A stretch of DNA of 64,000 bases, taken from positions 62,001-126,000 of the forward strand of contig FNPA01000004.1 in NCBI GenBank assembly GCA_900107185.1, read 5' to 3'. A model generated the notes under the pieces. That model saw only the letters and a list, made by a program, of their open reading frames with translations. It had not been told where the DNA came from and did not search any database. This DNA comes from Ruminococcaceae bacterium YAD3003 (GTDB lineage: Bacteria; Bacillota; Clostridia; Saccharofermentanales; Saccharofermentanaceae). Numbering within the stretch: the stretch's first letter is position 1; every line of letters begins with the position of its first letter. Positions 39,566-54,860 of this stretch are shown here, piece by piece. Position numbers and translations under genes: made by a program.

Positions 39566-40857
39566 ATATGAAAAAAGCTATTAGTTTACTTTTAACGGCA
39601 ACAATGGGTCTTGGCATGGTTGCGTGCACAGGACCGAAAGCTGATGTCGATAAAGGCTTCAGTCCTTCGTTGGACAAATCGACCAGTTGTCATATTACCA
39701 TTGCCGGAGGATACGATAACTTCGAAGCACTGGAAACGGAATTTGACCGGTTTAATGAGTACTATCCGAATGTGGAACTCGTGTTTACGAAGGTTGATGA
39801 TTATAACAACATGATCGGCACCGTCCTTAACGGAAACGATGCTCCTGATATTTATGTTAATTATTCATGGATGTACGGCAGGGAACAGTATGCATCCTGT
39901 ATCGATCATGCCGAGAATCTGGCAGATCCCTCGCTCAATATTAATTTTAACTGCATCCGTGGCAATATCATTTTGAATACAGATGACGGCACTCTTCCGA
40001 TGGTGCCTGTTTTCGCAAATACATATGGCATGCTCGTGAACAAAAAGCTGTTCGAAAAGGAGGGCTTGAACGTCCCGACGACTTATAAGGAACTTGTGGA
40101 TGTCTGCAATGCTTTCCGTGAAAAAGGCTATGCAAATCCCATGATGGGTTTCTCGCAGAAGGAGACAACATCGCTTTTCTCATTGACAATCTATCCGTAT
40201 TTTTGCGGAACAGTTGCGGGTGATGCAGAGGCTGTTAAAAAACTCAATTCGCTTGATCCTTCGGCAGGCGAATACCTAAGACCTTCTCTTGAGAAAGTAA
40301 CTCAGTTTATGAATGATGGCTGTGTTGATCTTGACAGCTGTGAACAGATCGAGAACAACTATGATGCCGTTATCCTCCGTTTCTTTGAAGGTGACATTCC
40401 GATGATGACATGCTCCGGAGATACTGTCTCAGGTACAAAGAAGCGTGAGAGCCGTTCCGAAGCGTTTATTGCCAATCCATTTGATTATGCCTTTGTACCT
40501 ATCCCTGTGTCAGATGATGGAGCTTATTTCCTTGATATGCCTAATCTCCAGTTCTCGGTCAACAAGGACAGTGCAAATCTCGATATGGCCAATGAGTTCA
40601 TGCGTTTTCTTATAACTTCACGTGAGCTGAATCAGATGGCAATGAACAAGGGCCTCATGTCACCGACAAAGGATCTTTCGTTCAATAACATGTATGCTGC
40701 ATTCGGAAATATTCCTGAATCACGAATACTGTCACCAGAAGTAATCGGACTGACGGATGATGCGGTCATTCAGATGAGACAGGCAGTTTACCTCGTCGGA
40801 AAGGGTGAGATGACAATAGATGAAGCGGTCGCTGCCTATGGGACCTTTACACAGTAG
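39562..40857 (+). CDS. Extracellular solute-binding lipoprotein (sugar-type)
   Basis: A 431-residue lipoprotein with a lipobox ending in GMVAC (C22 lipidated). The mature part has the layout of ABC substrate-binding protein family 1: FNEYYPNVELVF, VNYSWMYG, GMLVNKKLFEKEGLNVPTTY and FFEGDIPMMTCSG. No permease or ATPase is adjacent; it is joined by a four-base overlap to the hybrid kinase. It may therefore be a sensory partner of the kinase rather than a transporter subunit. ATG 39568 is an alternative start. Confidence 0.9.
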   Translation: MNMKKAISLLLTATMGLGMVACTGPKADVDKGFSPSLDKSTSCHITIAGGYDNFEALETEFDRFNEYYPNVELVFTKVDDYNNMIGTVLNGNDAPDIYVNYSWMYGREQYASCIDHAENLADPSLNINFNCIRGNIILNTDDGTLPMVPVFANTYGMLVNKKLFEKEGLNVPTTYKELVDVCNAFREKGYANPMMGFSQKETTSLFSLTIYPYFCGTVAGDAEAVKKLNSLDPSAGEYLRPSLEKVTQFMNDGCVDLDSCEQIENNYDAVILRFFEGDIPMMTCSGDTVSGTKKRESRSEAFIANPFDYAFVPIPVSDDGAYFLDMPNLQFSVNKDSANLDMANEFMRFLITSRELNQMAMNKGLMSPTKDLSFNNMYAAFGNIPESRILSPEVIGLTDDAVIQMRQAVYLVGKGEMTIDEAVAAYGTFTQ

Positions 40858-40963
40858 CTACGCTGATTACCTGTCTTAGAATTATTGAATAATCGAAATC
40901 GCTCTGCTTGTCTTCGATGTTATCATTTGGATACTGATAATATTAATTGGGGTAGAGGCATTA

Positions 40964-41638
40964 ATGATCAAAGCAGTAGTATTCGATATGTTTGAGACAC
41001 TGGTATCGATTTTTTCGGGTGATACTTATTTCAGTGAACATATAGCATCGGACCTAAATATTCCTGTTGAGGTTTTCAGGACCGTGTGGCATGACACCGA
41101 GAAAGGCAGAAGCAGCGGGAAATACACCATTCCTGAAACAATAAAGATTTGCCTTGAAAAACTTGGCTGTTACAGTGAAGAATCAGTACAGCTTGTCGTT
41201 GGACACAGAAGGAAAAATCTTGAAGGTGTATTTGCCCGCACGCCCCAAGAGACTATCGATCTGCTAAAAGAACTCAGAGCCCGTAACATTAAGATCGGCC
41301 TTATAAGCAACTGCTATTCTGATGAGGCTCAGGCCATTAAGGAGAGTGTTCTCTATCCGTTTTTCGATGCGGCTGTTTTATCTTACGAACAAGGCATAAC
41401 TAAACCTGATCCCGAGATTTTCAGAAGAGCGTTAGAGATGCTCGGCGTAGATGCAGATGAATGTCTGTATGTTGGTGATGGCGGTTCGAAAGAACTCTAT
41501 GGAGCAAGGGACTCCGGCATGAAGGCAGTGCAGGCGCGTTATTTCGCACACCTCGCATATGAACCTCATGTTCCATGTGGCAGACTCGAAGAGTTTGACT
41601 CCGCTGATACGCAGATGGATGTCTTGAAATATCTTTGA
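40964..41638 (+). CDS. HAD-superfamily hydrolase
   Basis: A 224-residue HAD hydrolase. Motif I is VVFDMFETLV; the nucleophile D8 is kept, but the residue two positions on is Phe rather than the Asp of phosphatases. This pattern is closer to haloacid-dehalogenase-like members, which have an aromatic or other residue there. Motif II is IGLISNC, motif III lysine is in ITKPDP and motif IV is YVGDGGSKE. A GGGGTAGAGG site precedes the ATG. Substrate unknown. Confidence 0.85.
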   Translation: MIKAVVFDMFETLVSIFSGDTYFSEHIASDLNIPVEVFRTVWHDTEKGRSSGKYTIPETIKICLEKLGCYSEESVQLVVGHRRKNLEGVFARTPQETIDLLKELRARNIKIGLISNCYSDEAQAIKESVLYPFFDAAVLSYEQGITKPDPEIFRRALEMLGVDADECLYVGDGGSKELYGARDSGMKAVQARYFAHLAYEPHVPCGRLEEFDSADTQMDVLKYL

Positions 41639-41676
41639 TGGTTGAGGAAGCAAAAAGGCAGAGTAACTTTTTAGAG

Positions 41677-41710
41677 TCTGGAACGTGGTAAGTTCCAGAT
41701 ATTTGTTATC
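41677..41710. terminator. Hairpin between the convergent HAD and lipoprotein genes
   Basis: TCTGGAAC (41677-41684) pairs perfectly with GTTCCAGA (41692-41699) over a seven-base loop. It is followed by TATTTGTTAT on the plus strand. The U-tract is weak; the position between convergent genes suits a shared terminator. Confidence 0.55.
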
Positions 41711-41757
41711 AGATGCCATTTGTTCCTCTTCTGATTTTTAGCAAATGTCCTTATCTG

Positions 41758-42135
41758 TTATTTAATTGGTGTAACAAGAAAGTTGATGGAAGTTTTTAAG
41801 TGATCATCGTAATCTACGATTTTTACAATTACGGTCTGTCCCTTGTGTATGCCTGTATAATCCTGATCCAAATGCAAAGTGTTCGAATCGGTATAGATTC
41901 CAACACCGACGTTGGCGCCGACACTTATATCTGTCTGTGTATAAATGAATCCCAGTGTTACATCTTTGTCAGCGACAACTTTCATGGTCTTACCGATAAT
42001 GTTTTCACCTGACTGTTGAGCAACGATTGCATCATGAGGGCTGGCATAATCGGGCTTGTCTGCGCATCCGGTTGAAGGAATCAGGAATGCGAAAAGCATT
42101 ATGGTAACTAACAGAATGGACATTGTTTTCTTCAT
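41758..42135 (-). CDS. Small secreted lipoprotein, unknown function
   Basis: A 125-residue protein with a signal peptide and lipobox PSTGC (C24). The mature ~100 residues are rich in Val, Asp and Thr and look like a compact beta domain (GKTMKVVADKDVTLGF, GQTVIVKIVDYDD). No family is recognised. An extended -10 (TGC-TATAAT, minus strand, 42173-42178) lies upstream. It is divergent from the next cassette. Confidence 0.78.
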   Translation of the reverse strand: MKKTMSILLVTIMLFAFLIPSTGCADKPDYASPHDAIVAQQSGENIIGKTMKVVADKDVTLGFIYTQTDISVGANVGVGIYTDSNTLHLDQDYTGIHKGQTVIVKIVDYDDHLKTSINFLVTPIK

Positions 42136-42241
42136 GATATTTCTCCCTTATTCGAAAAGTATTCCAACGACGATTATAGCATAGCATTTAAATAACATTG
42201 GTATAGTTTTCAGACGCGTAGGAGTGTATTTGTCAAAAACA

Positions 42242-42270
42242 TTGCGGTAAATTGAGCTCTTTGCTAAAAT
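42242..42270 (+). promoter_or_regulatory. Promoter of the three-gene cassette at 42363-44081
   Basis: TTGCGG (42242-42247) and TAAAAT (42265-42270) are 17 bases apart, about 90 bases before the first ATG. The leader has no structure I recognise. Confidence 0.65.
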
Positions 42271-42362
42271 TGTGAGGATTCTTATAAGTAAGGGTTTAAA
42301 ATGAAAAAAGTAAGAATCATTTTGGAATAACGGAATCTGCTTTCAGATAGGTTAATTGGATC

Positions 42363-42701
42363 ATGATTACCAAGAACATATATACAGTAAGAGTGCTTGA
42401 TTCAGGTGACTTGCCGGCTATTCTTAGCGGGACAGTTGGAAAACTGGAATATCTCATTGTAGTGCAAAAAGATGCACAGTGGTCTGCTGAAGCCGTAATC
42501 CCGGATTTTTCTGTTACTGATCAGTTTGATTTGGATATTATATTTGATGACGAATTCAGAAAAATAACCGAAGTAAATGTTGGTGATATATTCAATGTGG
42601 ATTTCAGTATAGCTGATAAGAAGGCAGGCTTACGTGAAGCCCAAGTGTTGAATATCCGCAAAGATAAACCGATAAATCATCTTCAGAATAAAGAGGAATA
42701 A
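42363..42701 (+). CDS. Hypothetical protein
   Basis: A 112-residue acidic protein with no signal peptide or transmembrane helix. It has alternating hydrophobic/polar strands (LEYLIVVQKDAQW, FDLDIIFDDEF, VGDIFNVDF) and may be a small beta-barrel. I recognise no family. It lies five bases before a nucleotidyltransferase-like gene, so they are probably in one operon. The ribosome site is weak. Confidence 0.65.
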   Translation: MITKNIYTVRVLDSGDLPAILSGTVGKLEYLIVVQKDAQWSAEAVIPDFSVTDQFDLDIIFDDEFRKITEVNVGDIFNVDFSIADKKAGLREAQVLNIRKDKPINHLQNKEE

Positions 42702-42706
42702 ATAAT

Positions 42707-43531
42707 ATGGCAATCGGTTTATCTAGAGAACGGATGGAAGAATTATTCCTTCAATATCTGGTTGAGGTTTTCGCTCATGCGGAGATAAGCAGTGCGTGTG
42801 TGAAAGATATCGTTATTACACGCGAGAAGGTGTCTGAGGCCGGTAGGAAAGCGTTTGCGGCATGCTTCCATGACCTGTACAGTGATATCGATATGTCACT
42901 AAGAGTTTGTCTTCCTAAAAACAGTTCAGTTACTCCTGAAGATTATTTGAAGAGAATAGACCGTTTCGGCGTAAATGAAGATACTGCTCTCGGATGGATG
43001 TTTGTTCCGGTAACTCAGGTTTACAGAATTATATTCAAAAACGGAATGCGCTATGACCTGGTTTTCGATTTTGAATATTCAGACGATGCGGTGCTGGATA
43101 TTGGAGAGATAGATACACTGGAAGAGAATCCTAATTGGCCCATGGATAATATCAACCGTTTTTGGTTTATACAGATTCAGGCACTCGGGAAAATATACCG
43201 CAATGATTATCTGATAGGCGCGCATCTGGCGAATATGAATTGCAACGATACTCTGGTCATGCAAATGATCATGAGAGATTTAGAACATGGTACGAGCCAT
43301 CACAGATATGGTTATTCCGAAGAATTGGAATATGTTAAGGCATTGGGTAAATGTCCGTATAAGTCAGACGGTCCGACGTTTACAAGAATTGCTGACAGCA
43401 TATATGCGGCTGCCTTGGCTTATGACAGACTGGCTAAATATTTCTATCCGCAATACCTGGACAGAAGTGATTCCTTCTTTGATATTTGGGAATGGTATGA
43501 GTCTTATGAACGAGCAACAACTGATCAGTGA
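42707..43531 (+). CDS. Nucleotidyltransferase-like protein
   Basis: A 274-residue soluble protein. DLYSDIDMSLRV near residue 60 matches the DxD metal motif of the aminoglycoside 6-adenylyltransferase-type nucleotidyltransferase fold, and YDLVFDFEY near 122 could supply the third carboxylate. The C-terminal half is helical with aromatic residues, like the ANT(6) substrate domain. The N-terminal GS-type motif is poorly conserved, so activity and substrate are uncertain. It overlaps the following HD gene by 26 bases. Confidence 0.6.
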   Translation: MAIGLSRERMEELFLQYLVEVFAHAEISSACVKDIVITREKVSEAGRKAFAACFHDLYSDIDMSLRVCLPKNSSVTPEDYLKRIDRFGVNEDTALGWMFVPVTQVYRIIFKNGMRYDLVFDFEYSDDAVLDIGEIDTLEENPNWPMDNINRFWFIQIQALGKIYRNDYLIGAHLANMNCNDTLVMQMIMRDLEHGTSHHRYGYSEELEYVKALGKCPYKSDGPTFTRIADSIYAAALAYDRLAKYFYPQYLDRSDSFFDIWEWYESYERATTDQ

Positions 43532-44081
43532 TGCAATAGAATACGTTTCTGAAATATTGGGAAACAATTCAGGCGGGCATGATACCGCACATTCGCTGCG
43601 CGTTTATAAGAATGCGCTTAAAATCTCAGAAATAGAATCAGGTTGTAATCATACTGTTGTCTCATTGGCTGCTATTCTCCATGATGTAGATGATCATAAA
43701 CTGTTTGATCACGAGAACAACGAGAATGCACGTGCCTTCTTAAACGCTAATGGTATTTCAGATGAACTGACTGATGAGATCTGCAGAGTGATCAATTCAG
43801 TATCGTTTAGTAAGAACCGTGGCAAAAAGCCGCAAACAATTGAAGGTGAGATCGTCCAGGATGCCGACCGCCTGGATGCGTTGGGTGCGATAGGAATCGC
43901 CCGTACTTTTGCATATGGCGGAGAGCACGGACGAAGCATAGAAGAATCTGTTCAGCACTTTTACGATAAGCTTCTGCTTCTTAAAGATGAACTCAATACA
44001 GACGCTGCCAAAGCTATCGCAATTAGAAGGCACGAATTCCTGGAATCTTATATTGCAGAACTGAATGAAGAGATTCGATAA
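43506..44081 (+). CDS. HD-domain phosphohydrolase (YpgQ/YedJ-like)
   Basis: A 191-residue HD-superfamily protein. The metal ligands are visible: GHDTAHSLRV (first His), LHDVDDHKL (HD) and VQDADRLDALGAIGIART (final Asp). This is the pattern of the YedJ/YpgQ group, some members of which hydrolyse nucleotides. I start at ATG 43506; ATG 43497 would add three residues. Its 5' end lies inside the nucleotidyltransferase-like gene in another frame, indicating coupling; the pair may make and remove the same modification, but that is speculation. Confidence 0.85.
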   Translation: MNEQQLISDAIEYVSEILGNNSGGHDTAHSLRVYKNALKISEIESGCNHTVVSLAAILHDVDDHKLFDHENNENARAFLNANGISDELTDEICRVINSVSFSKNRGKKPQTIEGEIVQDADRLDALGAIGIARTFAYGGEHGRSIEESVQHFYDKLLLLKDELNTDAAKAIAIRRHEFLESYIAELNEEIR

Positions 44082-44116
44082 GATATTGAATCTAAAGGGT
44101 TTAGAGTAATAGAGAA

Positions 44117-44144
44117 GGGGCTGTCTCATCACCGAGGCAGCCCC
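44117..44144. terminator. Hairpin between the convergent HD and feo operons
   Basis: GGGGCTGTCTC (44117-44127) pairs with GAGGCAGCCCC (44134-44144), with one G-U pair and a six-base loop. Strong stem, but no good U-tract on either strand, so its efficiency is unclear. Confidence 0.55.
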
Positions 44145-44175
44145 AAAAAGTATTTATGGCATATGAGGGATTTGT

Positions 44176-44352
44176 TTATTTATGCTGGCTGTGACATTTT
44201 CCGGCCATTGCACAGTGAGAACAATTGCAACCGCATGAACTCTTGCCGGCTTTCTTGTCTTTTATCAGGCTGCGTGCGGCAAAGAATACGGCAACAGCTA
44301 CCAGAGCTATAACCAATATGTTTATCCAGTTTGCAGCGAGCCAGTTAATCAT
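44176..44352 (-). CDS. FeoB-associated Cys-rich membrane protein
   Basis: A 58-residue protein. One N-terminal transmembrane helix (about 9-28, INILVIALVAVAVFFAA) is followed by a basic linker and a C-terminal CGCNCSHC...C cluster (C40, C42, C44, C47, C53) with histidines. This is the layout of the FeoB-associated Cys-rich membrane protein family, found next to feoB in Firmicutes and thought to aid ferrous iron transfer or membrane assembly. It lies ten bases after the feoB stop on the same strand. Too short for most gene finders; the motif makes it convincing. Confidence 0.92.
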   Translation of the reverse strand: MINWLAANWINILVIALVAVAVFFAARSLIKDKKAGKSSCGCNCSHCAMAGKCHSQHK

Positions 44353-44361
44353 ATAACACCT

Positions 44362-46785
44362 TTACTTTGTTGCCTTTTTTACTGGTCTGACAAGAAGGTA
44401 GATAAGACCTGCGAGTACCAGAATTGCGAATATCAATCCGATTACGTTAACACTTCCAGTGAAGAGGAGACCTAACTGGTATACGATGAGCGCGATTGCA
44501 TAAGCAAATACGCACTGGTAACCAATTGCGAACCATGTCCACTTGGCGCTGTTCATCTCTCTCTTGATAGCACCGATAGCTGCAAAGCAGGGTGCACAGA
44601 GGAGGTTGAAGATGAGGAAAGCGAAGCCAGAGAGCTGGTTCAAGCCTTCGAAATCGAGGACACCAAATACGCCGACAACTTCTTCCTTTGCTACAAGGCC
44701 CATGATCGTAGCGATAGTTGCCTTGATATTAGCGAAGCCCAAAGGAGCAAAGATCCACTTGATCGCATTACCGATGATTCCGAGGACTGATGATTCGAGT
44801 TCCATATCAGGATTGAATCCGAATCCGTCACCTGTGTTTCCGAATACTGATCCGAGCCAGATAGCGATGGAGGAGATCAGGATAACTGTTCCTGCCTTCT
44901 TAATGAAGGACCAGCCGCGCTCCCACATGGATCTCAAGAGGTTTCCGAGTGTCGGCCAGTGGTATGCAGGGAGCTCCATTACGAACGGGGCAGGATCACC
45001 TGCGAAAGGCTTTGTTTTCTTAAGGATGATACCTGATATAACAACTGCGGCTACACCGATGAAATAAGCCGAAGGTGCTACCCATGAGCCGCTGAATGCG
45101 GTGTGACGGAACAAAGCAGCTGTGATCAAAGCGATGATAGGGAGCTTGGCGCCGCAGGGGATGAATGTTGTTGTCATAATGGTCATTCTTCTGTCACGCT
45201 GATTCTCAATCGTGCGTGATGCCATGATACCCGGAACGCCGCATCCTGAAGATACGAGCATAGGAATGAATGACTTACCGGAAAGACCGAATCTTCTGAA
45301 GATACGGTCGAGCACGAATGCTACACGTGCCATGTATCCGCAGGACTCAAGGAATGCGAGGAGGAAGAAGAGTACGAGCATCTGGGGAACGAAGCCCAGA
45401 ACTGCACCGACACCGCCGACGATACCATCAACGACAAGTCCTGTAACGAATTCGTTTGCACCGGCTTTTTCGAGCAAACCGGAAACCATATCAGGGATGG
45501 AAGGAACGAAGACAGCACCTTCAGTCTCATCCATGCCGGGTGTTGTAAATTCACCTTCTTCATCGAGGGCACCTGATTCTGTCAGAGGTGTTTCGATGTC
45601 GTAGCCCTTGTCCATGAGTTCTGCTGCATAGAATCCGTAGTCTTCTTCGAAAGCGCCGAAGTCAGCATCTTCGAAGTCTGCCTGAAGGTTCTCTGCACCT
45701 GTTACGTCATTGTCAGCTGCTTCGTCGATAACAGCCTTCACACCATCAACGAAAACCGCTTCCCCGGCCCAGTTATCAACGTCTTCGTCGTACTGCTTCT
45801 GGCCGATGCCGAAGAGGAAGAAACCATCACCGAAGAGGTTGTCATTAGTCCAGTCGGTAAGATTTGCACCGAATGTGGTCATTGCGATGAAGTAAACGAG
45901 CCACATGATGAGCGCAAAAATAGGAAGACCAAGGATACGGTTGGTTACGATCTTATCGATCTTGTCTGATGTGGAGAGCTTAGCTTTGGATTGTTTCTTG
46001 TAGCAGCTCTTGATAATGGAAGCGATATAGACATAGCGCTCGTTTGTGATAATTGATTCAGCATCGTCATCAAGTTCTGTTTCGGCTGCTTTGATGTCAT
46101 TTTCAATATGATCGAGTTTTTCTTTTGAGATTCCGAGTTTCTCGATTACTTTCTCATCGCGCTCGAAAACCTTGATTGCATACCATCTCTGCTTATCAGC
46201 GTCCATATCGTGCAGACAAGCTTCCTCGATATGTGCGAGAGCGTGTTCGACCGGACCTGAGAAAGAGTGGGGAGGTACAGTCTTGGTTGTTTTGGCAGCA
46301 TTGATGGCTTCTTTTGCAGCTTCCTGAATGCCTGTTCCTTTGAGAGCTGAGATTGCAACTGCCTTGCATCCCATCTGTTTGCCGAGCATATCAAGATTGA
46401 TCTTGTCACCGTTCTTTTCTACGACGTCCATCATGTTGACAGCCATTACGACAGGAATGCCTAACTCAGTGAGCTGTGTTGTAAGATACAGGTTACGCTC
46501 AAGGTTAGTACCGTCAACGATATTAAGGATCGCATCAGGCTTCTCATCAATGAGATAGTTACGTGCAACAACTTCTTCTAATGTATATGGTGAGAGGGAG
46601 TAGATACCCGGAAGGTCCGTGATGGTCACTCCGTCGTGCTTTTTGAGTTTTCCTTCTTTTTTCTCTACAGTTACGCCCGGCCAGTTACCGACGAACTGAT
46701 TGGAACCCGTAAGAGCATTAAAGAGTGTAGTCTTACCGCTGTTAGGGTTACCTGCTAATGCGATTTTAATGTTTGAATCAGCCAT
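44362..46785 (-). CDS. feoB: Ferrous iron transporter FeoB
   Basis: An 807-residue Fe(II) transporter. The N-terminal G domain has P-loop GNPNSGKTT (12-20), NWPGVTVEKKEG, DLPG and NMMD; a helical spacer domain follows to about 270. The first membrane helix (about 284-306) is followed by an acidic extracytoplasmic stretch (about 318-428, many Asp/Glu) before the next gated helices, larger than in typical FeoB. The Gate motifs SCGYMARVAF and SSGCGVPGIMASR, with the conserved cysteines, are present. It is third in a feoA-feoA-feoB-Cys-rich operon under TTAG-N6-CTAA operators. Confidence 0.96.
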   Translation of the reverse strand: MADSNIKIALAGNPNSGKTTLFNALTGSNQFVGNWPGVTVEKKEGKLKKHDGVTITDLPGIYSLSPYTLEEVVARNYLIDEKPDAILNIVDGTNLERNLYLTTQLTELGIPVVMAVNMMDVVEKNGDKINLDMLGKQMGCKAVAISALKGTGIQEAAKEAINAAKTTKTVPPHSFSGPVEHALAHIEEACLHDMDADKQRWYAIKVFERDEKVIEKLGISKEKLDHIENDIKAAETELDDDAESIITNERYVYIASIIKSCYKKQSKAKLSTSDKIDKIVTNRILGLPIFALIMWLVYFIAMTTFGANLTDWTNDNLFGDGFFLFGIGQKQYDEDVDNWAGEAVFVDGVKAVIDEAADNDVTGAENLQADFEDADFGAFEEDYGFYAAELMDKGYDIETPLTESGALDEEGEFTTPGMDETEGAVFVPSIPDMVSGLLEKAGANEFVTGLVVDGIVGGVGAVLGFVPQMLVLFFLLAFLESCGYMARVAFVLDRIFRRFGLSGKSFIPMLVSSGCGVPGIMASRTIENQRDRRMTIMTTTFIPCGAKLPIIALITAALFRHTAFSGSWVAPSAYFIGVAAVVISGIILKKTKPFAGDPAPFVMELPAYHWPTLGNLLRSMWERGWSFIKKAGTVILISSIAIWLGSVFGNTGDGFGFNPDMELESSVLGIIGNAIKWIFAPLGFANIKATIATIMGLVAKEEVVGVFGVLDFEGLNQLSGFAFLIFNLLCAPCFAAIGAIKREMNSAKWTWFAIGYQCVFAYAIALIVYQLGLLFTGSVNVIGLIFAILVLAGLIYLLVRPVKKATK

Positions 46786-46803
46786 GTTATTGCCCCTCCT
46801 TAA

Positions 46804-47025
46804 TTATTCAACTTCAACCATTTCGGCATCGTTCTTTCGAAGTGACAATTCATAACCTCTGACTGTGATCTCTACCGGATCCCCCAGAGGTGCTACTTTG
46901 CGGACATAGATCTCAACACCCTTGGTAATGCCCATGTCCATGATCCTGCGCTTAACTGCGCCTTCACCGTGGAGCTTTACGACCTTAACGGTCTGTCCAA
47001 CCTTAACCTCTTTTAGTGTTTTCAT
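46804..47025 (-). CDS. feoA: FeoA-family protein (second of two)
   Basis: A 73-residue SH3-like FeoA protein. Motifs GQTVKVVKLHGEGAVKRRIMDMGITKG and VTVRGYELSLRK-like segments match the family. FeoA binds and modulates FeoB. It lies 18 bases upstream of feoB and 55 after the other feoA. It could also be the FeoC-like accessory partner, but sequence favours FeoA. GGAGG precedes its ATG. Confidence 0.92.
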   Translation of the reverse strand: MKTLKEVKVGQTVKVVKLHGEGAVKRRIMDMGITKGVEIYVRKVAPLGDPVEITVRGYELSLRKNDAEMVEVE

Positions 47026-47080
47026 ATAACCCTCCTCTAAATAAATAACGACTAATAAAGCGGCTCTATGACAAATCTGA

Positions 47081-47293
47081 TCAGACCATGATCTTCATAG
47101 CCATATCTTTGTTTAATGCAATACGGGATTCCTTTACTTTGAGAATGACGTTGCCGTCGTTAACTGTCACCAGGGTAACGAGTCCGCCGGGAACGATACC
47201 GAGATTCTCAAGATGAAGTTTTACTTCAGGGTTTCCGCCGACTCTCCTTACGATCATTTCCTCGCCTGCGTCGGCAACTGTAATAGGCATCAT
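47081..47293 (-). CDS. feoA: FeoA-family protein (first of two)
   Basis: A 70-residue FeoA protein, first gene of the feo operon. Segments AGEEMIVRRVGGNPEVKLHLENLGIVPGG and ESRIALNKDMAMKI fit the SH3-like fold. Two tandem feoA genes before feoB are frequent in Clostridia. It is read from the minus-strand promoter at 47380-47407, with two abutting TTAG-N6-CTAA operators between promoter and gene. Confidence 0.92.
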   Translation of the reverse strand: MMPITVADAGEEMIVRRVGGNPEVKLHLENLGIVPGGLVTLVTVNDGNVILKVKESRIALNKDMAMKIMV

Positions 47294-47350
47294 GTCTACC
47301 TCTCAATCTGTGTGGAAAAACAATATGAAATAAATGGTATATTACAAATA

Positions 47351-47378
47351 TTAGCCACACCTAATTAGTCTTGGCTAA
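47351..47378. promoter_or_regulatory. Two abutting TTAG-N6-CTAA operators of the feo operon
   Basis: TTAG-CCACAC-CTAA (47351-47364) and TTAG-TCTTGG-CTAA (47365-47378) follow one another with no gap, a 14-base repeat. They start one base past the minus-strand -10 box, a natural position for repression at the transcription start. A DtxR/IdeR/MntR-like metalloregulator is the likely reader. Confidence 0.75.
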
Positions 47379-47379
47379 C

Positions 47380-47407
47380 ATTATATCTTTCATTCATGAT
47401 TCTGCAA
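47380..47407 (-). promoter_or_regulatory. Promoter of the feoA-feoA-feoB operon
   Basis: Read on the minus strand, TTGCAG (47407-47402) and TATAAT (47385-47380) are 16 bases apart. This is the only strong promoter-like pair facing feoA in the 306-base divergent gap. Confidence 0.8.
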
Positions 47408-47468
47408 GGGGAAACTTGAAAAATGTCAATCTGCACAAGGGTTACAAGAAAAATAACTGACTTTTGTG

Positions 47469-47497
47469 TTGACAGATTAGCTAAAACTAACTATTAT
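47469..47497 (+). promoter_or_regulatory. Promoter of the ECF transporter operon
   Basis: A consensus -35 TTGACA (47469-47474) and TATTAT (47492-47497) are spaced exactly 17 bases. The spacer is almost entirely filled by a TTAG-N6-CTAA operator, so the promoter cannot be open while a protein sits on it. Confidence 0.88.
47477..47490. promoter_or_regulatory. TTAG-N6-CTAA operator inside the ECF promoter spacer
   Basis: TTAG-CTAAAA-CTAA lies between the -35 and -10 boxes of the ECF operon promoter. Confidence 0.78.
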
Positions 47498-47509
47498 GTT
47501 TTGCGAATA

Positions 47510-47523
47510 TTAGCTGAGGCTAA
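47510..47523. promoter_or_regulatory. Second TTAG-N6-CTAA operator of the ECF operon
   Basis: TTAG-CTGAGG-CTAA lies 12 bases past the -10 box, covering the likely start region. It is 33 bases from the spacer operator, about three helical turns, so both sites face the same side of the DNA. Confidence 0.75.
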
Positions 47524-47599
47524 TAAAAATTAATCTTGTCACTTTTAATGATATATCTTTGTTAAAAAGAGAATCATTAAAGAAATTGCGGGAGGATAT

Positions 47600-48196
47600 A
47601 TGGAAAATAAGAGTAATAAACTCAAAGCAAAAGACTTTATAACTATCGGTATCTTTACAGCAATTCTTTTTGCGGTTGAATTCGCTTTCGGAATGCTCGG
47701 ATACATTCATCCGTTTATTGTTGCGTCATACGTGGTCATTTTGCCTCTGGCAAGCGGCATTCCCATGATGCTCTTCTATACGAAGGTTGAGAAATTCGGC
47801 ATGATAACGATAGTTTCCGTTCTCTTAGCAATCATCATGTTTATCGGAGGCATGGGATATCTCGGAGCGCCGCTCATCATTATTTCAGGCCTTGTTGCTG
47901 ATTTAATAGCTAAATCAGGAAAATATAAGAGTTTTAAGAAGACGGTTTTGAGTTTTGGTGTATTTAATCTTTGGATCTGCGCTAATTATTTTCCAATCCT
48001 CATTACAGCAGATGCATACCGACAGGATCTTATCGACGGCGGATATTCTGCTGAATACGTTGAAAACCTGTTCCTTGCAATCAATGTAAAGACAATCGGA
48101 ATCCTTGTTGTTCTCGCGTTTGCATTCGGCTGTCTCGGAGCAGTTATCGGTAAGGCAGCAGTTAAGAAACATTTTGAGAAGGCCGGAATCGTATAA
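47600..48196 (+). CDS. ECF transporter substrate-binding S component (MptD/Trep_Strep type)
   Basis: A 198-residue, six-helix membrane protein. DFITIGIFTAILFAVEFAFGMLG at the N-terminus and GGMGYLGAPLIIISGLVADLIAK in the middle match the Trep_Strep/MptD-like S-component family. Related S components sit in iron- or haem-linked loci in streptococci. GGGAGGA precedes the ATG. It is followed at once by T and A genes, so it is a dedicated group I ECF system. With iron-type operators upstream, haem or an iron chelate is the likely substrate, but this is inference. Confidence 0.83.
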   Translation: MENKSNKLKAKDFITIGIFTAILFAVEFAFGMLGYIHPFIVASYVVILPLASGIPMMLFYTKVEKFGMITIVSVLLAIIMFIGGMGYLGAPLIIISGLVADLIAKSGKYKSFKKTVLSFGVFNLWICANYFPILITADAYRQDLIDGGYSAEYVENLFLAINVKTIGILVVLAFAFGCLGAVIGKAAVKKHFEKAGIV

Positions 48197-48198
48197 TA

Positions 48199-48894
48199 AT
48201 GAAACTCGATCCGCGCACTAAATTGTTCATGATATTGGTTGTATCTCTCATAGTCATGATGAGTGCGACAACACCGTTTCTTTGGGCGATAAGGCTCTCG
48301 ATAACACTGATACCGATAGTGCTTCTTATATTGGAGAAGAAGTATGCCTCGGCACTGCGTTTTCTGCTTGCATATAGTACGGCTCTCGTACTGACATTCT
48401 TCTTTTTGTCGGCTGAATCAGAGGGAATCGTAGCTTCGCTTCTTATTGGGTATTGCGGCATAGTGGTTCAGTTTATGCCTGCTCTGATCACTGCCTGGTA
48501 TGTAGTAAGAACCACGAAGATAGGTGAATTCATGTCCTGCATGCAGAAGATGCATATCCCTGACGGAATTGCCGTATCACTTGCAGTAGTCATGCGTTTC
48601 TTTCCGACGATCAAAGAAGAGTATTCTTCTATAAATGATGCCATGAGAATGCGCGGAGTTATGCTCGGAGGCGGTAACGTTCTCAAGATGGTTGAATTCA
48701 GAATGATTCCGCTCCTTTTCTCGTGCGTTAACATAGGCGAAGAACTGTCAGCGGCAGCCATTACAAGAGGTCTTGGAGGAGAGGTCAAGCGGTCAAGTGT
48801 AGTAGAACTTAAGCTTGGCATAGCTGATTATATCCTTATGACATTCCTTGCTGCTGCGACAGTCATCTTCGTTGTTTTTAAGTATTTTTTATGA
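48199..48894 (+). CDS. ECF transporter transmembrane T component (CbiQ/EcfT type)
   Basis: A 231-residue membrane protein with N-terminal LDPRTKLFMILVVS, typical of EcfT. The two coupling-helix Arg-Gly motifs that contact the ATPases are visible as INDAMRMRGVML near residue 150 and AAAITRGLGG near 192. It starts two bases after the S gene and overlaps the ATPase gene by four bases. Confidence 0.92.
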   Translation: MKLDPRTKLFMILVVSLIVMMSATTPFLWAIRLSITLIPIVLLILEKKYASALRFLLAYSTALVLTFFFLSAESEGIVASLLIGYCGIVVQFMPALITAWYVVRTTKIGEFMSCMQKMHIPDGIAVSLAVVMRFFPTIKEEYSSINDAMRMRGVMLGGGNVLKMVEFRMIPLLFSCVNIGEELSAAAITRGLGGEVKRSSVVELKLGIADYILMTFLAAATVIFVVFKYFL

Positions 48895-50387
48895 GTATCA
48901 TCGAGCTCGAAAACATAAACTTCCAATACAAGGGTTCCAGAGACGGATCTCTTCGTGATGTTAACATTAAAATAGAAGAAGGACAGACTGTCCTTCTCTG
49001 CGGTGCATCAGGATCAGGCAAGACATCGATAATCAGACTTATCAATGGTCTTATACCTCATTACTATTCAGGTGAATTGGAAGGTGAAGTTACCGTAGAC
49101 GGCCATGATATTAAAAAGACCGAACTGCACGAACTCGCCGGCACTGTGGGAACGGTTTTCCAGAATCCGAGGAGTCAGTTTTTCTCTGTCGATACAGATG
49201 GAGAGATAGTTTTCGGACCGGAGAACATTGGTCTTGAACCCAAAGAGATTAAGGCGAGAATGAATGATGTCGTAGCCGAGATGAATCTTGAAGAAATCCT
49301 GGGCAGAAGTATTTTCGATCTGTCGGGAGGACAGAAGCAGAGGATTGCATGTGCATCCGTTGCTGCATTGTTGCCTAAGATAATCCTGCTGGACGAACCG
49401 TCGTCAAATCTTGATTTTGATTCCATTGAACTTCTTCGCGGAATAATAACGGAATGGAAGAGACAGGGTAAGACGATCATTATCTCTGAACACAGACTGT
49501 GGTATCTCAAGGATGCCGTAGACCATGTTTTCTATATTGAGAACGGGCAGATAGCAAAAGAATGGAGCGGAGAAGAATTCACTTCATTAAACGAAGATGA
49601 GGTCAAGTCATATAAGCTGAGACCTATAGTTCTTGAAGAAGAGCTCATAAGACAGATCAGAGGCGACTGTGAATCTTCAGTTTGTGAGATCAAAGATGCT
49701 ATTGAATTGCAGAATTTCTATTTCAGCTACAAAAAGAAACCTTATCTGTTATTGAAGAAGAGATTTAAAGAATCAGACGGGGATCTTCTTAATCTGAATA
49801 TATCTGAATTGAGAATTCCCAAAGGTAAAGTCATTGGTCTTGTCGGACCTAATGGCACCGGTAAATCCACATTTTTAAGATGTCTTTGCGGCCTTGAAAG
49901 AGACTGCAAAGGCAGGATCGTGTCAGATGGCGTAACGTACAAAGGACGGCAGCGTCTTAAGCTTTGTTATATGGTAATGCAGGATGTTAACCACCAGCTC
50001 TTTACCGACAGCGTCAGATCTGAAGTTATGCTGTCAATGAAGGAAGATGATGAGGAACGCTGTGATGAGCTCCTTAAAATGCTCGGGCTAACAGAACATA
50101 AAGATACACACCCAATGGCTTTGTCAGGCGGTCAGAAACAACGTGTCGCAATTGCTTCGGCTTTGGCTTCGGACGCACATGTTCTTCTGTTTGATGAACC
50201 TACATCAGGACTTGATTATTCTCATATGGAGAAGGTAGCAGAACTATTGCAGCGGCTTGCTTCTTCAGGTGCATCAGTGATCGTGTCCACGCATGATCCG
50301 GAACTGATCTCGGAATGCTGTGATTATGTATTGGGGCTTAATCACGGAAAAGTGGTATATCTTAAAGAAAACAGGAAGGAGCGTTAA
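48891..50387 (+). CDS. ECF transporter double ATPase (A and A' fused)
   Basis: A 498-residue protein with two complete ABC domains, replacing separate EcfA and EcfA'. Domain 1 (1-~240) has Walker A GASGSGKTS, the Q-loop in VFQNPRSQFF, signature LSGGQKQR and Walker B IILLDEPSS. Domain 2 (~265-498) has GPNGTGKST, LSGGQKQR and LLFDEPTSG. It powers uptake by the S/T pair. It overlaps the T gene by four bases and is followed one base later by a methyltransferase-like gene. Confidence 0.93.
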   Translation: MSIIELENINFQYKGSRDGSLRDVNIKIEEGQTVLLCGASGSGKTSIIRLINGLIPHYYSGELEGEVTVDGHDIKKTELHELAGTVGTVFQNPRSQFFSVDTDGEIVFGPENIGLEPKEIKARMNDVVAEMNLEEILGRSIFDLSGGQKQRIACASVAALLPKIILLDEPSSNLDFDSIELLRGIITEWKRQGKTIIISEHRLWYLKDAVDHVFYIENGQIAKEWSGEEFTSLNEDEVKSYKLRPIVLEEELIRQIRGDCESSVCEIKDAIELQNFYFSYKKKPYLLLKKRFKESDGDLLNLNISELRIPKGKVIGLVGPNGTGKSTFLRCLCGLERDCKGRIVSDGVTYKGRQRLKLCYMVMQDVNHQLFTDSVRSEVMLSMKEDDEERCDELLKMLGLTEHKDTHPMALSGGQKQRVAIASALASDAHVLLFDEPTSGLDYSHMEKVAELLQRLASSGASVIVSTHDPELISECCDYVLGLNHGKVVYLKENRKER

Positions 50388-50388
50388 C

Positions 50389-50889
50389 ATGAAAAACTAT
50401 GTTAGAGAAGGACAGAAACTGCCCCTGTTCGGTATAGGTCCTTATCTCATCTCAAGTGTTTTTCTTGTTACAGCAATTGGCATTATCCTGTCCTGTTATG
50501 TGTTTAAGTTTGGAATCCTTGATGGAATATGGATATGGATATTCAGGATAATCGGAGTACTGCTGATTTCAGGCGGAATCGCAGTATGGTACATAGGTGC
50601 ACTGCGTTCAAATATGGACAGGAATATATCTGAAAACAAGCTTCAGACAGGCGGCATATATGCATGTGTCAGGAATCCGATGTACAGCGGATGCTGGATG
50701 ATCGCATCAGGTTTAGGATTCATGTGGCATAACTGGATCATATTTCCGGTTATTCTTGTCACATGGTTAATACTGACCGTTGTACTGATAAATACGGAAG
50801 AGAAATGGCTCCTAAATCTGTATGGCAGGGAATATGCTGAATACAAGAAACATGTAAACAGATGTGTACCGTGGTTCCCTCGGAAATGA
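50389..50889 (+). CDS. Isoprenylcysteine carboxyl methyltransferase (ICMT/PEMT)-family membrane protein
   Basis: A 166-residue membrane protein with about four helices. LQTGGIYACVRNPMYSGCWMI near residue 90 and EEKWLLNLYGREYAEYKKHVNRCVPW at the C-terminus are the SAM-binding signatures of the ICMT/phospholipid methyltransferase family. GAAGGAG precedes ATG 50389. It is the last gene of the ECF operon. A role with the transported substrate is possible; the acceptor is unknown. Confidence 0.85.
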   Translation: MKNYVREGQKLPLFGIGPYLISSVFLVTAIGIILSCYVFKFGILDGIWIWIFRIIGVLLISGGIAVWYIGALRSNMDRNISENKLQTGGIYACVRNPMYSGCWMIASGLGFMWHNWIIFPVILVTWLILTVVLINTEEKWLLNLYGREYAEYKKHVNRCVPWFPRK

Positions 50890-50960
50890 CCCTGCACAAG
50901 GTTATCTAAAGTCTTATTTTATTGATTCTGATTATCAATATCAGATTTAACATACAAAAA

Positions 50961-50974
50961 TTAGCCAAATCTAA
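50961..50974. promoter_or_regulatory. TTAG-N6-CTAA operator in the 50.9-51.1 kb gap
   Basis: TTAG-CCAAAT-CTAA, about 130 bases before the ABC ATPase gene and just after the ECF operon ends. Confidence 0.68.
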
Positions 50975-51041
50975 CTAAATGACAAAAATCGCACGAATCT
51001 GGCGTTGAATCCTTGTCAAAAAAATATATGTGCCCTAGTGG

Positions 51042-51055
51042 TTAGCGTAGACTAA
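51042..51055. promoter_or_regulatory. TTAG-N6-CTAA operator near the ABC operon start site
   Basis: GTTAG-CGTAGA-CTAAC lies 33 bases before the ABC ATPase ATG. A TTGTCA at 51013-51018 with a weak TAGTGG 17 bases on would put this operator at the start point. The promoter itself is uncertain. The two sites here are about 81 bases apart, centre to centre. Confidence 0.7.
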
Positions 51056-51088
51056 CATTAAGACAGAATATTTATAGAGGTGATAGAT

Positions 51089-51790
51089 ATGTTTATTGAG
51101 ACAAGAGACCTTAAGAAGTCTTATGGTGAAGGCGGTAGTTTTGTTCAGGTATTAAAAGGCATCAGCATTAAGATAAACAAAGGCGAGATGTGCGTAATTC
51201 AGGGAACATCCGGTTCCGGTAAATCCACACTGCTTAACTGCATTGGCGGTCTTGACGACATCGATTCCGGCAATGTCTCCGTAGCAGGAACGTTCGTTGA
51301 AGGTTTAAAGGGAGAAAAGCTATCCGATTACAGAAGAGCTAATCTCGGCTTCATTTTCCAATTTTATAACCTGGTTCCGAATCTTACGGTCAGAGAGAAT
51401 ATTCAGGTTTGTGAGTACCTTACCAAAGAACCTCTCAACATGGATGAACTCATCGATGTTTTGGGACTTACTGAGCATCAACATAAGTTCCCGTCTCAGT
51501 TATCCGGAGGTCAGCAGCAGAGATGTGCAATTGCAAGAGCATTGGTAAAGAATCCCAAAGTTTTGCTCTGCGATGAGCCCACGGGAGCGCTGGATTCTAA
51601 GACATCAAGAGATATTCTCGTGCTGCTCGAGAAAATAAACAAACAGTATGGTACGACAATGCTGATCGTTACCCATAATAATTCAATCAAGAATATGGTT
51701 GATCACGTGATTTATCTCAAGGACGGAGAGATATATAAAGACTATATCAATGAGACGAAGGTTCCGGCTTCGGAATTGGAGGACCTCTGA
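51089..51790 (+). CDS. ABC transporter ATPase, MacB/LolD-like
   Basis: A 233-residue ABC ATPase of the group that partners FtsX-type permeases. Walker A is GTSGSGKST, the Q-loop FIFQFYNLVPNLT, the signature LSGGQQQRCAIARAL and Walker B LLCDEPTGALDS; the H-loop is in IVTHNN. ATG 51089 follows AGAGGTGAT; a GTG at 51080 is in frame but sits in the ribosome site. It works with the large permease one base downstream. Its promoter region has TTAG-N6-CTAA operators. Confidence 0.92.
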   Translation: MFIETRDLKKSYGEGGSFVQVLKGISIKINKGEMCVIQGTSGSGKSTLLNCIGGLDDIDSGNVSVAGTFVEGLKGEKLSDYRRANLGFIFQFYNLVPNLTVRENIQVCEYLTKEPLNMDELIDVLGLTEHQHKFPSQLSGGQQQRCAIARALVKNPKVLLCDEPTGALDSKTSRDILVLLEKINKQYGTTMLIVTHNNSIKNMVDHVIYLKDGEIYKDYINETKVPASELEDL

Positions 51791-51791
51791 T

Positions 51792-54700
51792 ATGGGATGG
51801 ATTTTGTTTAAGAGAGCACTTCGCGATCTTAAAACAGGTTTTGCAAGATATATTGCACTATCACTGCTCATAATATTCTCACTCTTTATCGTTATCAGCC
51901 TCATGGCAGCTGCAGATACGGTCATTGACACTACCGAGATTTCTGACAGGGAGCTCTGCTGCGAAGACGGAGAGTTCTCCGTTTTTGTTCCGCTTCGTGA
52001 TGAAGAACTAAAGAAAATCACCGACCACGGTGTAACGGTCGAGAAGATGTTCTATGCCGATTATGAGATTAATGAGAATCAGGTTTTAAGAGCTTTTAAA
52101 GTAAGAGAGAGCATAAATAAGATTTCTCTCATTGAAGGAACTCTTCCGATATCTGACAGCGAAGCAGTTATTGAGAGAAGATATTCGGAAGTAAACAATG
52201 TTCTTATCGGCGATAAGATCACTATTGGCGAAAAAGAGTTTACTGTTACCGGTATCGGAGCAACACCGGATTACAACACAGTTATTAAGAAAATTTCGGA
52301 TACCGTCGTTGACAGCAGATATTTCGGATTGATTTTTATTACCCCTGAGGCTTATGACGAACTCTACGCTTCAGGTTGTTCTTTGGCTTCCGAAGAATAC
52401 TACTACGCCTATTTACTTAACGATGTAATGAGTGAAGATGAATTGAAAGAAATCCTTGAGGATAATACTTTCGATGTTGATGATGTTGATGATGAGTATT
52501 TCAAAGAATACTGGAACAGAATGACCGAGAGGAAAGACGAACTCTTGGATGGTATCGATGAACTAAAAGACGGTGCTGACGAATTAGCTGATGGAGCTGA
52601 AGAACTTCGTGACGGAATTGACGAATTTCATGAAGGCATGACTGATCTCCATGATGCGGTTCCTGATCTTACAGACGGAATCGAAGCACTCGATGAAGGC
52701 GCGGCTGAATTAGAGAGCGGAGTTAAGGCTTACACATCTGCTGTTGATCAGATCGAATCCGGAGCATCAGAACTTTCTGACGGAGCAGCTCAATTAGCAT
52801 CAGGTGCGTCTGAACTTAACAGCGGTGCTGCACAATATGGTGAAGGTGTTAATGAATTGTCCGGAACTGTTGGAGTGATGGCTCAGAGTGAAGACCCGTA
52901 TATTGCCGGAGTTGCAGCAGGATTCGTTGATCCTGTTACGGCACTGGCAACCGGATATGGTCAGATTCAAAGCGGAATAGCAGGTGTTGATTCCGGTGCG
53001 GCTGCTCTTTCTGCAGGCGCATATCAGCTGTATTCAGGAATCAAAACATTAAATTCAAACAGCGCCGCACTCCGTTATGGTGCCGCTGCTCTTCATGCCG
53101 GAACCACCGAACTCAAAGAAGGGGCTGCAGAATTTGCTGAAGGAATCGATGAGTTGTATGACGGATCAAAAGAGATAAAAGACGGTTCTTCGGATCTTGC
53201 AAAAGGAGCCAGAGAATTGTCTGACGGAGTTAATGAGTTTTCTGATGAAGCGAATGATCTCATTGATGAAGTTTTCAATATAGATCTGTCTAATCTTCGT
53301 ATCTTCATGACAAAAGCAGATAATCCGAGAATCGATTCGGCAGCAGATGATGTGCAGATAAATTATTCCGCGAGCATAATATTCGGAATATTGCTTGTAG
53401 TTCTTTTTGCATACGTTATATCAGTATTTATTGTGCACACTATAGATCAGGAGAGTGCGGTAATTGGTGCACTCTATTCGATGGGAGTAAAAAGAAGAAC
53501 ACTGACTTTAAGTTATGTTGCAGTTCCGGTAATCGTTACGTTCATATCCGGCATTATCGGAACATTGATTGCAGTGTACACTCCGGCCGGAATACCTGCA
53601 CAACTGCAGGATACATTGGGTTATTTCTCGATGCCTAAACTAGATATAATCGTTAAGCCTTTTATACTTATCTATGGGCTTGCTATTCCGCCGGTGACAG
53701 CGTTTATAGTTAATGTTCTTGTAGTAAGAAACAGACTGGTAAGAACTCCGCTGTCTCTTCTTCATAATGAACAGAAAGCAGTACGCGGAAAAGAACTGAA
53801 GATCAAGGGAATGAAATTTATTCCGATGTTCAGATTAAGACAGATAATGCGTGAGATCCGTGCGGGGCTTACAGTTATCTTCGGTCTTTTTATGAGTCTT
53901 CTTATAGCTCTCATGGCAATCAACACGAGTGTATATTGTTCGAATGTGAAGAACAGTTATATTGATCTCACTAAGTATGAGTACATGTATACCTACAAGT
54001 ATCCTACTGAGGAAGTTCCTGAAGGCGGATACGAAGCGGTTGCTGAAGGATTCAAGAAAGAAATCTACGGATATACCTTTGATGTTACAGTGCTTGGTAT
54101 AACAAAGGATAATCCGTTCTTTGATACAGGTGATCTTCCTGATAATGATTCAGATGTTGTATTGAGTTCTTCGGTTGCTAATAAGTATAACCTGACAGTC
54201 GGCGATATCTTCACATTAAGCAATGACAAGGGCGAGAGATTGTATGCCTTCAGAGTAGCAAGAATAACTGATTATACTGCATCAATGTTTGTGTTTATGG
54301 ATATAGACAGGTGTCGGGATATGTTTAACGAAGATGACGATTACTTCAACGTCGTATTCTCTGATCACCCTCTTGATATTGATGGGGGAAGACTCTATTC
54401 CACTGTGTCCAAGGAAGAGATTGCAAGATCTTCGGGTGTCTATGTTGAGATGATGGCTCCGATGGTAACAACCATGTCAGTTGCATCTGCCGTAGTTTTC
54501 CTTGTGGTTATGTATCTCATGGTAAAGATGATGATCGACAGATCAGCGTTCAATATTTCATTGGTAAAGGTGTTTGGATTCAGGAACCGGGAGGTCAGAA
54601 AGATGTACCTTGATGGCAATTTCTACATTGTAGCAATAGGTGCATTGATATCGATACCTCTGTGCAAATTGATCATGGACTATATATATCCGAGATATCT

Positions 54701-54860
54701 TGTGAGCAACGTTGGTGTCGGAGTTACAGCTGATTATCCGCCGGTGTTATTCGCAGCAATATTTGCAGTGATCATTGTCCTTTATCTGGCGATCAACTTC
54801 GTCCTCACAGGAAGAATCAGGAACATCAAACCAGCAGAAGTGCTTAAGAACAGGGAGTAA
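51792..54860 (+). CDS. Large FtsX-family ABC permease with repeat-rich extracytoplasmic domain
   Basis: A 1022-residue permease. After the first helix (about 16-38) comes a MacB-like extracytoplasmic region (to ~245), then about 240 residues of heptad-like repeats rich in LxDGAxEL and SGAxxL units (about 250-495), as in YhgE/Pip-type proteins. Three-helix FtsX domains follow near 530-670 and at the C-terminus (about 900-1010), with a second extracytoplasmic region between. Such transporters export or sense rather than import. The repeat domain probably forms a long helical bundle. It starts one base after the ATPase stop. Confidence 0.88.
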   Translation: MGWILFKRALRDLKTGFARYIALSLLIIFSLFIVISLMAAADTVIDTTEISDRELCCEDGEFSVFVPLRDEELKKITDHGVTVEKMFYADYEINENQVLRAFKVRESINKISLIEGTLPISDSEAVIERRYSEVNNVLIGDKITIGEKEFTVTGIGATPDYNTVIKKISDTVVDSRYFGLIFITPEAYDELYASGCSLASEEYYYAYLLNDVMSEDELKEILEDNTFDVDDVDDEYFKEYWNRMTERKDELLDGIDELKDGADELADGAEELRDGIDEFHEGMTDLHDAVPDLTDGIEALDEGAAELESGVKAYTSAVDQIESGASELSDGAAQLASGASELNSGAAQYGEGVNELSGTVGVMAQSEDPYIAGVAAGFVDPVTALATGYGQIQSGIAGVDSGAAALSAGAYQLYSGIKTLNSNSAALRYGAAALHAGTTELKEGAAEFAEGIDELYDGSKEIKDGSSDLAKGARELSDGVNEFSDEANDLIDEVFNIDLSNLRIFMTKADNPRIDSAADDVQINYSASIIFGILLVVLFAYVISVFIVHTIDQESAVIGALYSMGVKRRTLTLSYVAVPVIVTFISGIIGTLIAVYTPAGIPAQLQDTLGYFSMPKLDIIVKPFILIYGLAIPPVTAFIVNVLVVRNRLVRTPLSLLHNEQKAVRGKELKIKGMKFIPMFRLRQIMREIRAGLTVIFGLFMSLLIALMAINTSVYCSNVKNSYIDLTKYEYMYTYKYPTEEVPEGGYEAVAEGFKKEIYGYTFDVTVLGITKDNPFFDTGDLPDNDSDVVLSSSVANKYNLTVGDIFTLSNDKGERLYAFRVARITDYTASMFVFMDIDRCRDMFNEDDDYFNVVFSDHPLDIDGGRLYSTVSKEEIARSSGVYVEMMAPMVTTMSVASAVVFLVVMYLMVKMMIDRSAFNISLVKVFGFRNREVRKMYLDGNFYIVAIGALISIPLCKLIMDYIYPRYLVSNVGVGVTADYPPVLFAAIFAVIIVLYLAINFVLTGRIRNIKPAEVLKNRE

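Follow-up and report, generated by a model that had tools for sequence, protein, structure and literature searches.

Among the importers that bring ferrous iron into anaerobic gut bacteria, FeoB is a main one, and there is to our knowledge no settled view of how Fe(II) gets to its outer mouth. The feo locus described here, found in a window of 64,000 nucleotides (the whole stretch of DNA that was analysed), codes for a FeoB with a long segment packed with aspartate and glutamate directly after its first membrane helix, which raises the question of what such a segment does in an iron transporter. The initial annotation had placed it at 45500-45860 (FeoB residues about 309-429) and had suggested that it is a loop without counterpart in known FeoB proteins, collecting Fe(II) outside the membrane while a companion Cys-rich protein acts on the inner side. 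We therefore considered its composition, its side of the membrane, its distribution, its predicted fold and its possible function.

The feo locus and its FeoB

The features of the locus are collected in Table 1. In Pfam searches the FeoB has its domain set complete, with the GTPase domain, FeoB_Cyto, two Gate stretches and FeoB_C. It scores 513.4 bits against TIGR00437, above the curated cut-off of 315.65, and 480.4 bits against the FeoB equivalog model NF007105 (PRK09554), below the curated cut-off of 683. NFeoB crystal structures match the GTPase domain of its structural model with Z-scores of up to 33.0. None of the FeoB chains that a sequence search recovers from the PDB is longer than 285 residues, and full-length FeoB is thus absent from these matches. 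A second FeoB encoded in the same genome (L217) has a 34-residue loop and shares 41% core identity with the window FeoB. Rfam gave nothing at the gathering threshold over 40000-52000.

Table 1. Features of the feo locus and of the FeoB protein; coordinates are window positions
Feature	Coordinates	Strand	Basis
feoB, 807 aa	44362..46785	-	ORF; TIGR00437 match; FeoB_N, FeoB_Cyto, Gate (2 stretches), FeoB_C
GTPase domain FeoB_N, residues 7-158, cytoplasmic	46312..46767	-	Pfam best stretch
First membrane helix (TM1) of FeoB, about residues 286-306	45868..45930	-	hydrophobic stretch 276-310; model helix 286-320
Whole FeoB insert, residues 316-451 (136 aa)	45433..45840	-	loop lengths on alignment; isolated model
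N-terminal socket flank, residues 316-329 (FGDG..LFGIG)	45799..45840	-	conserved F318, G321
Predicted helical cap, residues 329-403, five helices	45577..45801	-	isolated and full-length models
Acidic linker, residues 404-428	45502..45576	-	sequence; mostly non-helical in isolated model
C-terminal socket flank, residues 427-451 (VPSIP, then helix)	45433..45507	-	conserved V427, P428, P431
First Gate domain, residues 463-556	45118..45399	-	Pfam Gate best stretch
FeoB_C, residues 571-623	44917..45075	-	Pfam
FeoB-associated Cys-rich protein, 58 aa, downstream of feoB	44176..44352	-	PF12669 3.4e-15
FeoA, 73 aa, upstream of feoB	46804..47025	-	PF04023 9.8e-23
Second FeoA, 70 aa, upstream of feoB	47081..47293	-	PF04023 6.6e-14

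The intergenic region (47294-47600) that separates the feo genes from a divergent gene contains four of the five matches in the window to an ATTAGC-N4-GCTAAT-like palindrome, one of them perfect, in a search of the 64-kb window that allowed up to 2 mismatches and for which shuffling gives 3.05 expected in 64 kb. They look like a cluster of iron-regulator boxes of the DtxR-like kind. The genes divergent from feo (47600-50387) encode a Trep_Strep membrane protein, a CbiQ-like protein and a double ABC ATPase, that is, an ECF-type importer, which may share the palindromic boxes of the feo genes and is possibly an importer of iron or haem.

A large acidic insert, probably on the outer side

In its first outer loop the window protein has 136 residues between FeoB positions 315 and 452, in place of the 26-34 seen in insert-less relatives. 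This whole insert (residues 316-451) contains 34 D/E and 4 K/R; its most acidic part, residues 318-428, contains 31 D/E among 111 residues (a fraction of 0.279) and just 3 K/R. A stretch of 111 residues in which D/E exceed K/R by at least 28 occurs in 3 of 238 predicted genes, the window FeoB included, in a set of 320,640 bases made up of the 64-kb window and 19 further stretches of its genome. We also selected, by a pattern of our own, 12 lipoprotein candidates from the same genome: the D/E fraction of their mature parts averages 0.179 with a maximum of 0.214, and the insert is more acidic than every one of them, each measured whole. Since so few genes are this acidic and since 0.279 lies above the lipoprotein maximum, the acidity is real and goes beyond ordinary composition, in agreement with the description of residues 318-428 as a large segment packed with aspartate and glutamate.

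Two other acidic proteins are encoded in the window. A 417-residue protein (19527-20777) has the top acidic excess among the 238 genes, with 59 D/E and 5 K/R in residues 13-123. The other, an FtsX-like permease (51750-54857), has 41 D/E and 7 K/R in the 111-residue stretch that starts at residue 212, an acidic excess of 34 versus 29 for the FeoB stretch.

The GTPase domain of FeoB is cytoplasmic. Between it and the insert lies a single hydrophobic stretch (residues 276-310), and the next one starts at residue 444. Residues 124-275, before TM1, contain 24 K/R, while the insert region (311-443) has 4 K/R together with 35 D/E; a short stretch at 494-504 is basic again (4 K/R, 0 D/E). The counterpart loop of Escherichia coli FeoB is the predicted 'outer loop 1' in the available part of PMC12147183. 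Because one hydrophobic stretch separates the insert from the cytoplasmic GTPase domain, because it has few K/R and because its E. coli counterpart is outer loop 1, the insert is very probably extracytoplasmic. This is the side to which the initial annotation had assigned it, and the topology predicted for the insert does not place it in the cytoplasm. In the full-length FeoB model (mean pLDDT 73.4), residues 287-773 superimpose on the CNT transporter 5l26_C with a Z-score of 17.7 and an rmsd of 4.6 over 325 aligned residues, and the membrane part likewise matches the CNT transporter 3tij (Z 17.4, 326 residues aligned).

Distribution among FeoB proteins

To establish how far the insert extends beyond the window protein, the residues between query positions 315 and 452 were counted in 214 FeoB proteins besides the query, with near-copies and the window's own locus included. 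The Gate/FeoB_C core is matched at E 1e-30 or better in 104 of 128 Clostridia genomes. A subfamily, defined by a core copy at least 59% identical, comprises 45 genomes, of which 44 were measured, the window's genome included, with G129 (an open frame of 550) left out. The loop is long (97-156 residues) in 21 of these, while one has 66 residues, five have 38-46 and 17 have 28-31. By comparison, all 40 FeoB proteins of other lineages, hand-picked from among the matches listed in the Clostridia sample, have 47-58 residues in the region that corresponds to positions 301-459 of the query and counts 159 residues there. The view that the insert lacks a counterpart in known FeoB proteins accordingly holds for the other lineages (40/40 short) and fails within the protein's own subfamily (long in 21/44, the window included). 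The homologue alignment also led us to reject two simpler accounts of its distribution: the insert is not unique to the window protein, being present across a defined FeoB subfamily, nor is it found in most clostridial FeoB proteins, as it occurs in 21 of the 44 subfamily copies measured and in none of the 40 others examined. The acidic outer insert thus appears to belong to one FeoB subfamily of gut and rumen Clostridia.

Profile searches extend this picture. A profile of the insert matches 78 of 391 Clostridia genomes at E 0.001, own genome counted, many of the lower-end matches covering the flanks only, and 9 genomes exceed 130 bits over its whole length; in a phylum-wide sample it matches 7 of 299 genomes at E 1e-4, own genome counted. 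Among the matches listed, those in Clostridia sit in open frames that span 399-895 residues, the sizes that intact or truncated FeoB genes would give. The profile hits one place in the window's own genome, namely the window FeoB, and no second copy of the cap elsewhere in it. Within the window's own genus the loop measures 28 (G010), 30 (G023), 37 (G013) and, in the window, 136 residues. Two records titled Bacteroides sp. and Treponemataceae (L073 and L075) contain a FeoB with an insert of the T0 type defined below, which may reflect misbinned contigs or gene transfer.

A conserved socket with different caps

The insert can be divided into a socket, formed by the conserved flanks (the extended end of TM1 and the C-terminal flank), and a cap, the centre of roughly 60-115 residues. 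Nine of 11 loops of 37-46 residues have both an FG(D/E)G start and a PGIP-like end with almost nothing between them, and both flanks are present, by a somewhat looser pattern, in 150 of 152 long loops. After removal of near-copies, 109 long loops remain, which fall into the types T0 (66, window included), T1 (28), T2 (7) and T3 (5) and three singles. When part of the flanks is kept, clustering unites 108 of the 109 loops in one group, and the types separate when the flanks are trimmed. In hhalign comparisons the probability is 99.7-100% for whole loops of different types, versus 0.5%, 0.4% and 0.1% for the T0 centre against the centres of T1, T2 and T3 and 4.1% for T2 against T3; the T1 centre shares an element with T2 (92.6%) and with T3 (83.4%). 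On these alignments the same socket would be occupied by two or more caps with no common ancestry that can be detected, and very fast divergence from one ancestor may also have produced the types.

On a FastTree phylogeny of 167 FeoB proteins built with the loop excluded (starred at 57 of its 164 inner branches, with a long-branch warning for L001 and L197), the distinction between long and not-long loops takes 12 changes, and well-supported (starred) branches force 11 of these, a result that points to repeated gain or loss of the cap. T0 lies in one supported clade of 68 rows, of which 66 are long and two shorter (77 and 37 residues). Its rows are dominated by loci found with patterns, two of which lie inside the insert; such loci are biased to carriers and were excluded from prevalence.

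Predicted fold and conservation

When residues 316-451 were folded alone with 66 relatives, the best model reached a mean pLDDT of 91.1 and a pTM of 0.75, the other four having pLDDT values of 78.2-85.4. Its helices (329-343, 347-358, 364-372, 376-392 and 398-403) are identical in the isolated and full-length models. The models hence predict a folded, helical domain in place of a loose loop, and the term 'loop', used for the insert at first, does not fit. No Pfam family matches the window insert; across 67 insert members nine weak families appear, each matched by one member (best E 0.0028). The insert profile finds no PDB sequence at E 1 or better, and comparison of the cap with PDB structures gives nothing above noise (Foldseek best E 1.4; VIA-align best Z 3.7 over 63 residues). 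The modelled cap fold has no recognised relative in these Pfam and PDB comparisons, where absence of a match does not amount to proof of a new fold.

The dN/dS ratio of insert residues 330-425 is 0.03-0.19 in 13 of 15 close relatives, two being saturated; for the G domain it is 0.02-0.07 (12/15 relatives) and for the core (455-620) 0.01-0.13 (15/15), all these ratios being rough, as for most relatives dS is close to 1 or higher. Nine positions are invariant in 67 insert rows (F318, G321, A356, G363, A364, F379, E381, L438 and L450), G319 and D320 are nearly so, and V427, P428 and P431 are found in 90-97% of rows; at the end of TM1, T310, D311, N314 and D315 are invariant in 52 rows. Judged from these coding sequences, the cap is under purifying selection, and the low dN/dS together with the invariant positions suggests that it is kept mostly through hydrophobic, glycine and alanine positions.

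Possible functions of the cap

Collection of Fe(II) by an acidic outer domain is plausible, and the reading that we prefer, if tentatively, is that the acidic cap is a weak, many-site Fe(II) antenna. According to this proposal the first outer loop would form an extracytoplasmic module, in which the conserved socket holds a folded, highly acidic helical cap located above the outer entrance of an FeoB that is CNT-like and probably trimeric. The dense negative charge would raise the local concentration of Fe(II), or of a similar divalent metal, which would then be passed to D311, D315 and D320, conserved acidic residues where TM1 ends, and on to the pore; the cap would work by weak electrostatic attraction at many sites and not through one defined binding site. 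Most in favour of an electrostatic role, at the place where divalent cations enter the transporter, is the acidity shared by all caps, including those with no detectable homology to one another: the loop net charge is -17 to -32 in T0 (66 rows), -22 to -39 in T1 (28), -8 to -24 in T2 (7) and -23 to -29 in T3 (5), with a mean of -2.2 in 45 short loops. We further count in favour of the antenna the charge itself and its rarity (3/238), the predicted fold, the dN/dS values, the invariant residues at the end of TM1 and the CNT-like membrane part. By analogy, yeast Ftr1 depends for its function on the DXXE acids of its extracellular loop 6, as given in the available text of PMC11817551.

Against the antenna we count that T2 is less acidic than the other cap types, that the stretch in the FtsX-like permease is even more acidic, that 17 of 44 genomes manage with 28-31 residues, and that some Firmicutes Feo systems cluster with a Mn transporter (from the accessible portion of PMC8749426), which leaves Mn conceivable as a substrate. 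Acidity may be a general surface trait. The under-dispersion ratio of D/E counts (0.65) is no stronger than that of hydrophobic (0.63) or polar (0.66) residues, so that these counts do not show selection on total charge. The T0 insert has no conserved ExxE, no two of the 18 positions that are D/E in at least 80% of 67 T0 rows being three apart, and no His or Cys conserved at 85% or more; the single His-rich position, 323, is His in 45 of 67 rows and Phe in the window, whose insert offers no His/Cys ligand.

The same facts are read differently if the cap is a module for docking, subunit stabilisation or wall spacing, with an acidity that is ordinary extracytoplasmic surface chemistry and no direct role in iron handling, a serious contender that we nevertheless regard as doubtful. 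A folded domain with invariant glycine, alanine and aromatic positions (A356, G363, A364 and F379) and with no conserved ligand motif found in it is what such a module would look like, and the high average D/E fraction of the 12 lipoproteins and the still more acidic permease stretch favour an ordinary origin of the charge. This reading has to contend with an insert more acidic than each of these whole lipoproteins, with the acidity common to caps lacking detectable homology, and with the finding of no insert-specific neighbour, where the Cys-rich gene alone was looked for.

The Cys-rich gene had been proposed as the inner partner of the insert. By a criterion of our own, a small membrane protein with clustered Cys is encoded within 1,200 bases downstream of feoB at 20 of 20 loci with loops of 28-46 residues (one of them 800 bases away) and, by the same criterion, at 16 of 17 testable loci with long loops; one lacks it, and 2 of the 19 loci end too near the gene. 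PF12669 is matched by 9 of 10 companion candidates (five from each group), the tenth, beside a 30-residue loop, matching nothing. We rejected a link between insert and companion, which is equally present beside short or medium loops (20/20 versus 16/17), and a two-sided pairing finds no support, the companion being there with or without the insert. The accessible part of PMC8749426 describes the Cys-rich protein as spread in Firmicutes and Bacteroidetes.

Returning to the antenna, it is conceivable, if unlikely, that the modular outer socket of FeoB in gut Clostridia has repeatedly been fitted with unrelated, folded acidic caps that converge on charge but not on sequence, and so with a built-in, exchangeable Fe(II) antenna. 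If true, such an antenna would play for a Gram-positive FeoB the part that other importers leave to a separate substrate-binding protein.

The 12 changes on the FeoB tree (11 forced) and the unrelated-looking centres could also reflect a changing surface shield against phage, bacteriocins or antibodies, whose sequence turns over while the transporter core stays; the relatives L009-L012 have identities of 0.67-0.75 in the insert versus 0.89-0.90 in the G domain. The retention of acidity across caps and the insert dN/dS of 0.03-0.19, with positive selection not seen in a whole-region test, make this improbable. We find it harder still to credit the cap as a metal sensor or gate regulator that signals outer Fe(II) to the pore or GTPase domain: it does follow directly on TM1, which itself follows the GTPase part, and the kinase BqsS is proposed, in the available part of PMC12666569, to sense Fe(II) in its extracytoplasmic domain via ExxE, but T0 has no conserved metal-site motif. 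Least credible of all is the view that a permissive loop tolerates the insertion as a nearly neutral one; this would explain the repeated gain or loss and the wide length range and is at odds with purifying selection, a confident predicted fold and retention in a supported clade (66/68 rows long).

The natural series of loops of 28, 38, 66 and about 130 residues, in sister lineages and in the window's own genus, makes the role of the outer face directly testable by loop swaps, and the isolated cap may be soluble enough for study.

Comparison with known systems

FeoB itself is well known. In the open-licence literature, including the available parts of PMC8749426, PMC10353542, PMC4847171, PMC12147183 and PMC10781979, we found no description of such an insert, and we read the acidic-insert form as an undescribed FeoB variant. 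The closest arrangement of genes is the feoAABC operon of Faecalibacterium duncaniae, which like the window has two FeoA genes, FeoB and then a small gene (there feoC); it is iron-repressed, and its FeoB is abundant in a human faecal metaproteome (according to the accessible portion of PMC10781979). E. coli FeoB resembles the window FeoB in combining GTPase, FeoB_Cyto, Gate and FeoB_C in one protein, and differs in having as outer loop 1 a predicted nine residues (INIGGALQP, as given in the available part of PMC12147183) where the window protein has 136. Yeast Ftr1, with loop 6, provides another acidic outward loop of an iron permease (PMC11817551, in the part available). However, Ftr1 is an unrelated protein that handles Fe(III) and relies on a short conserved DXXE with mutational proof, whereas the window FeoB has a large domain without such a motif. 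The CNT nucleoside transporters (5l26 and 3tij, Z 17.7 and 17.4) are like FeoB in the fold of the membrane part, a link that Pfam's name for Gate, 'Nucleoside recognition', already implies. They have no GTPase domain, and their substrate is different from that of FeoB.
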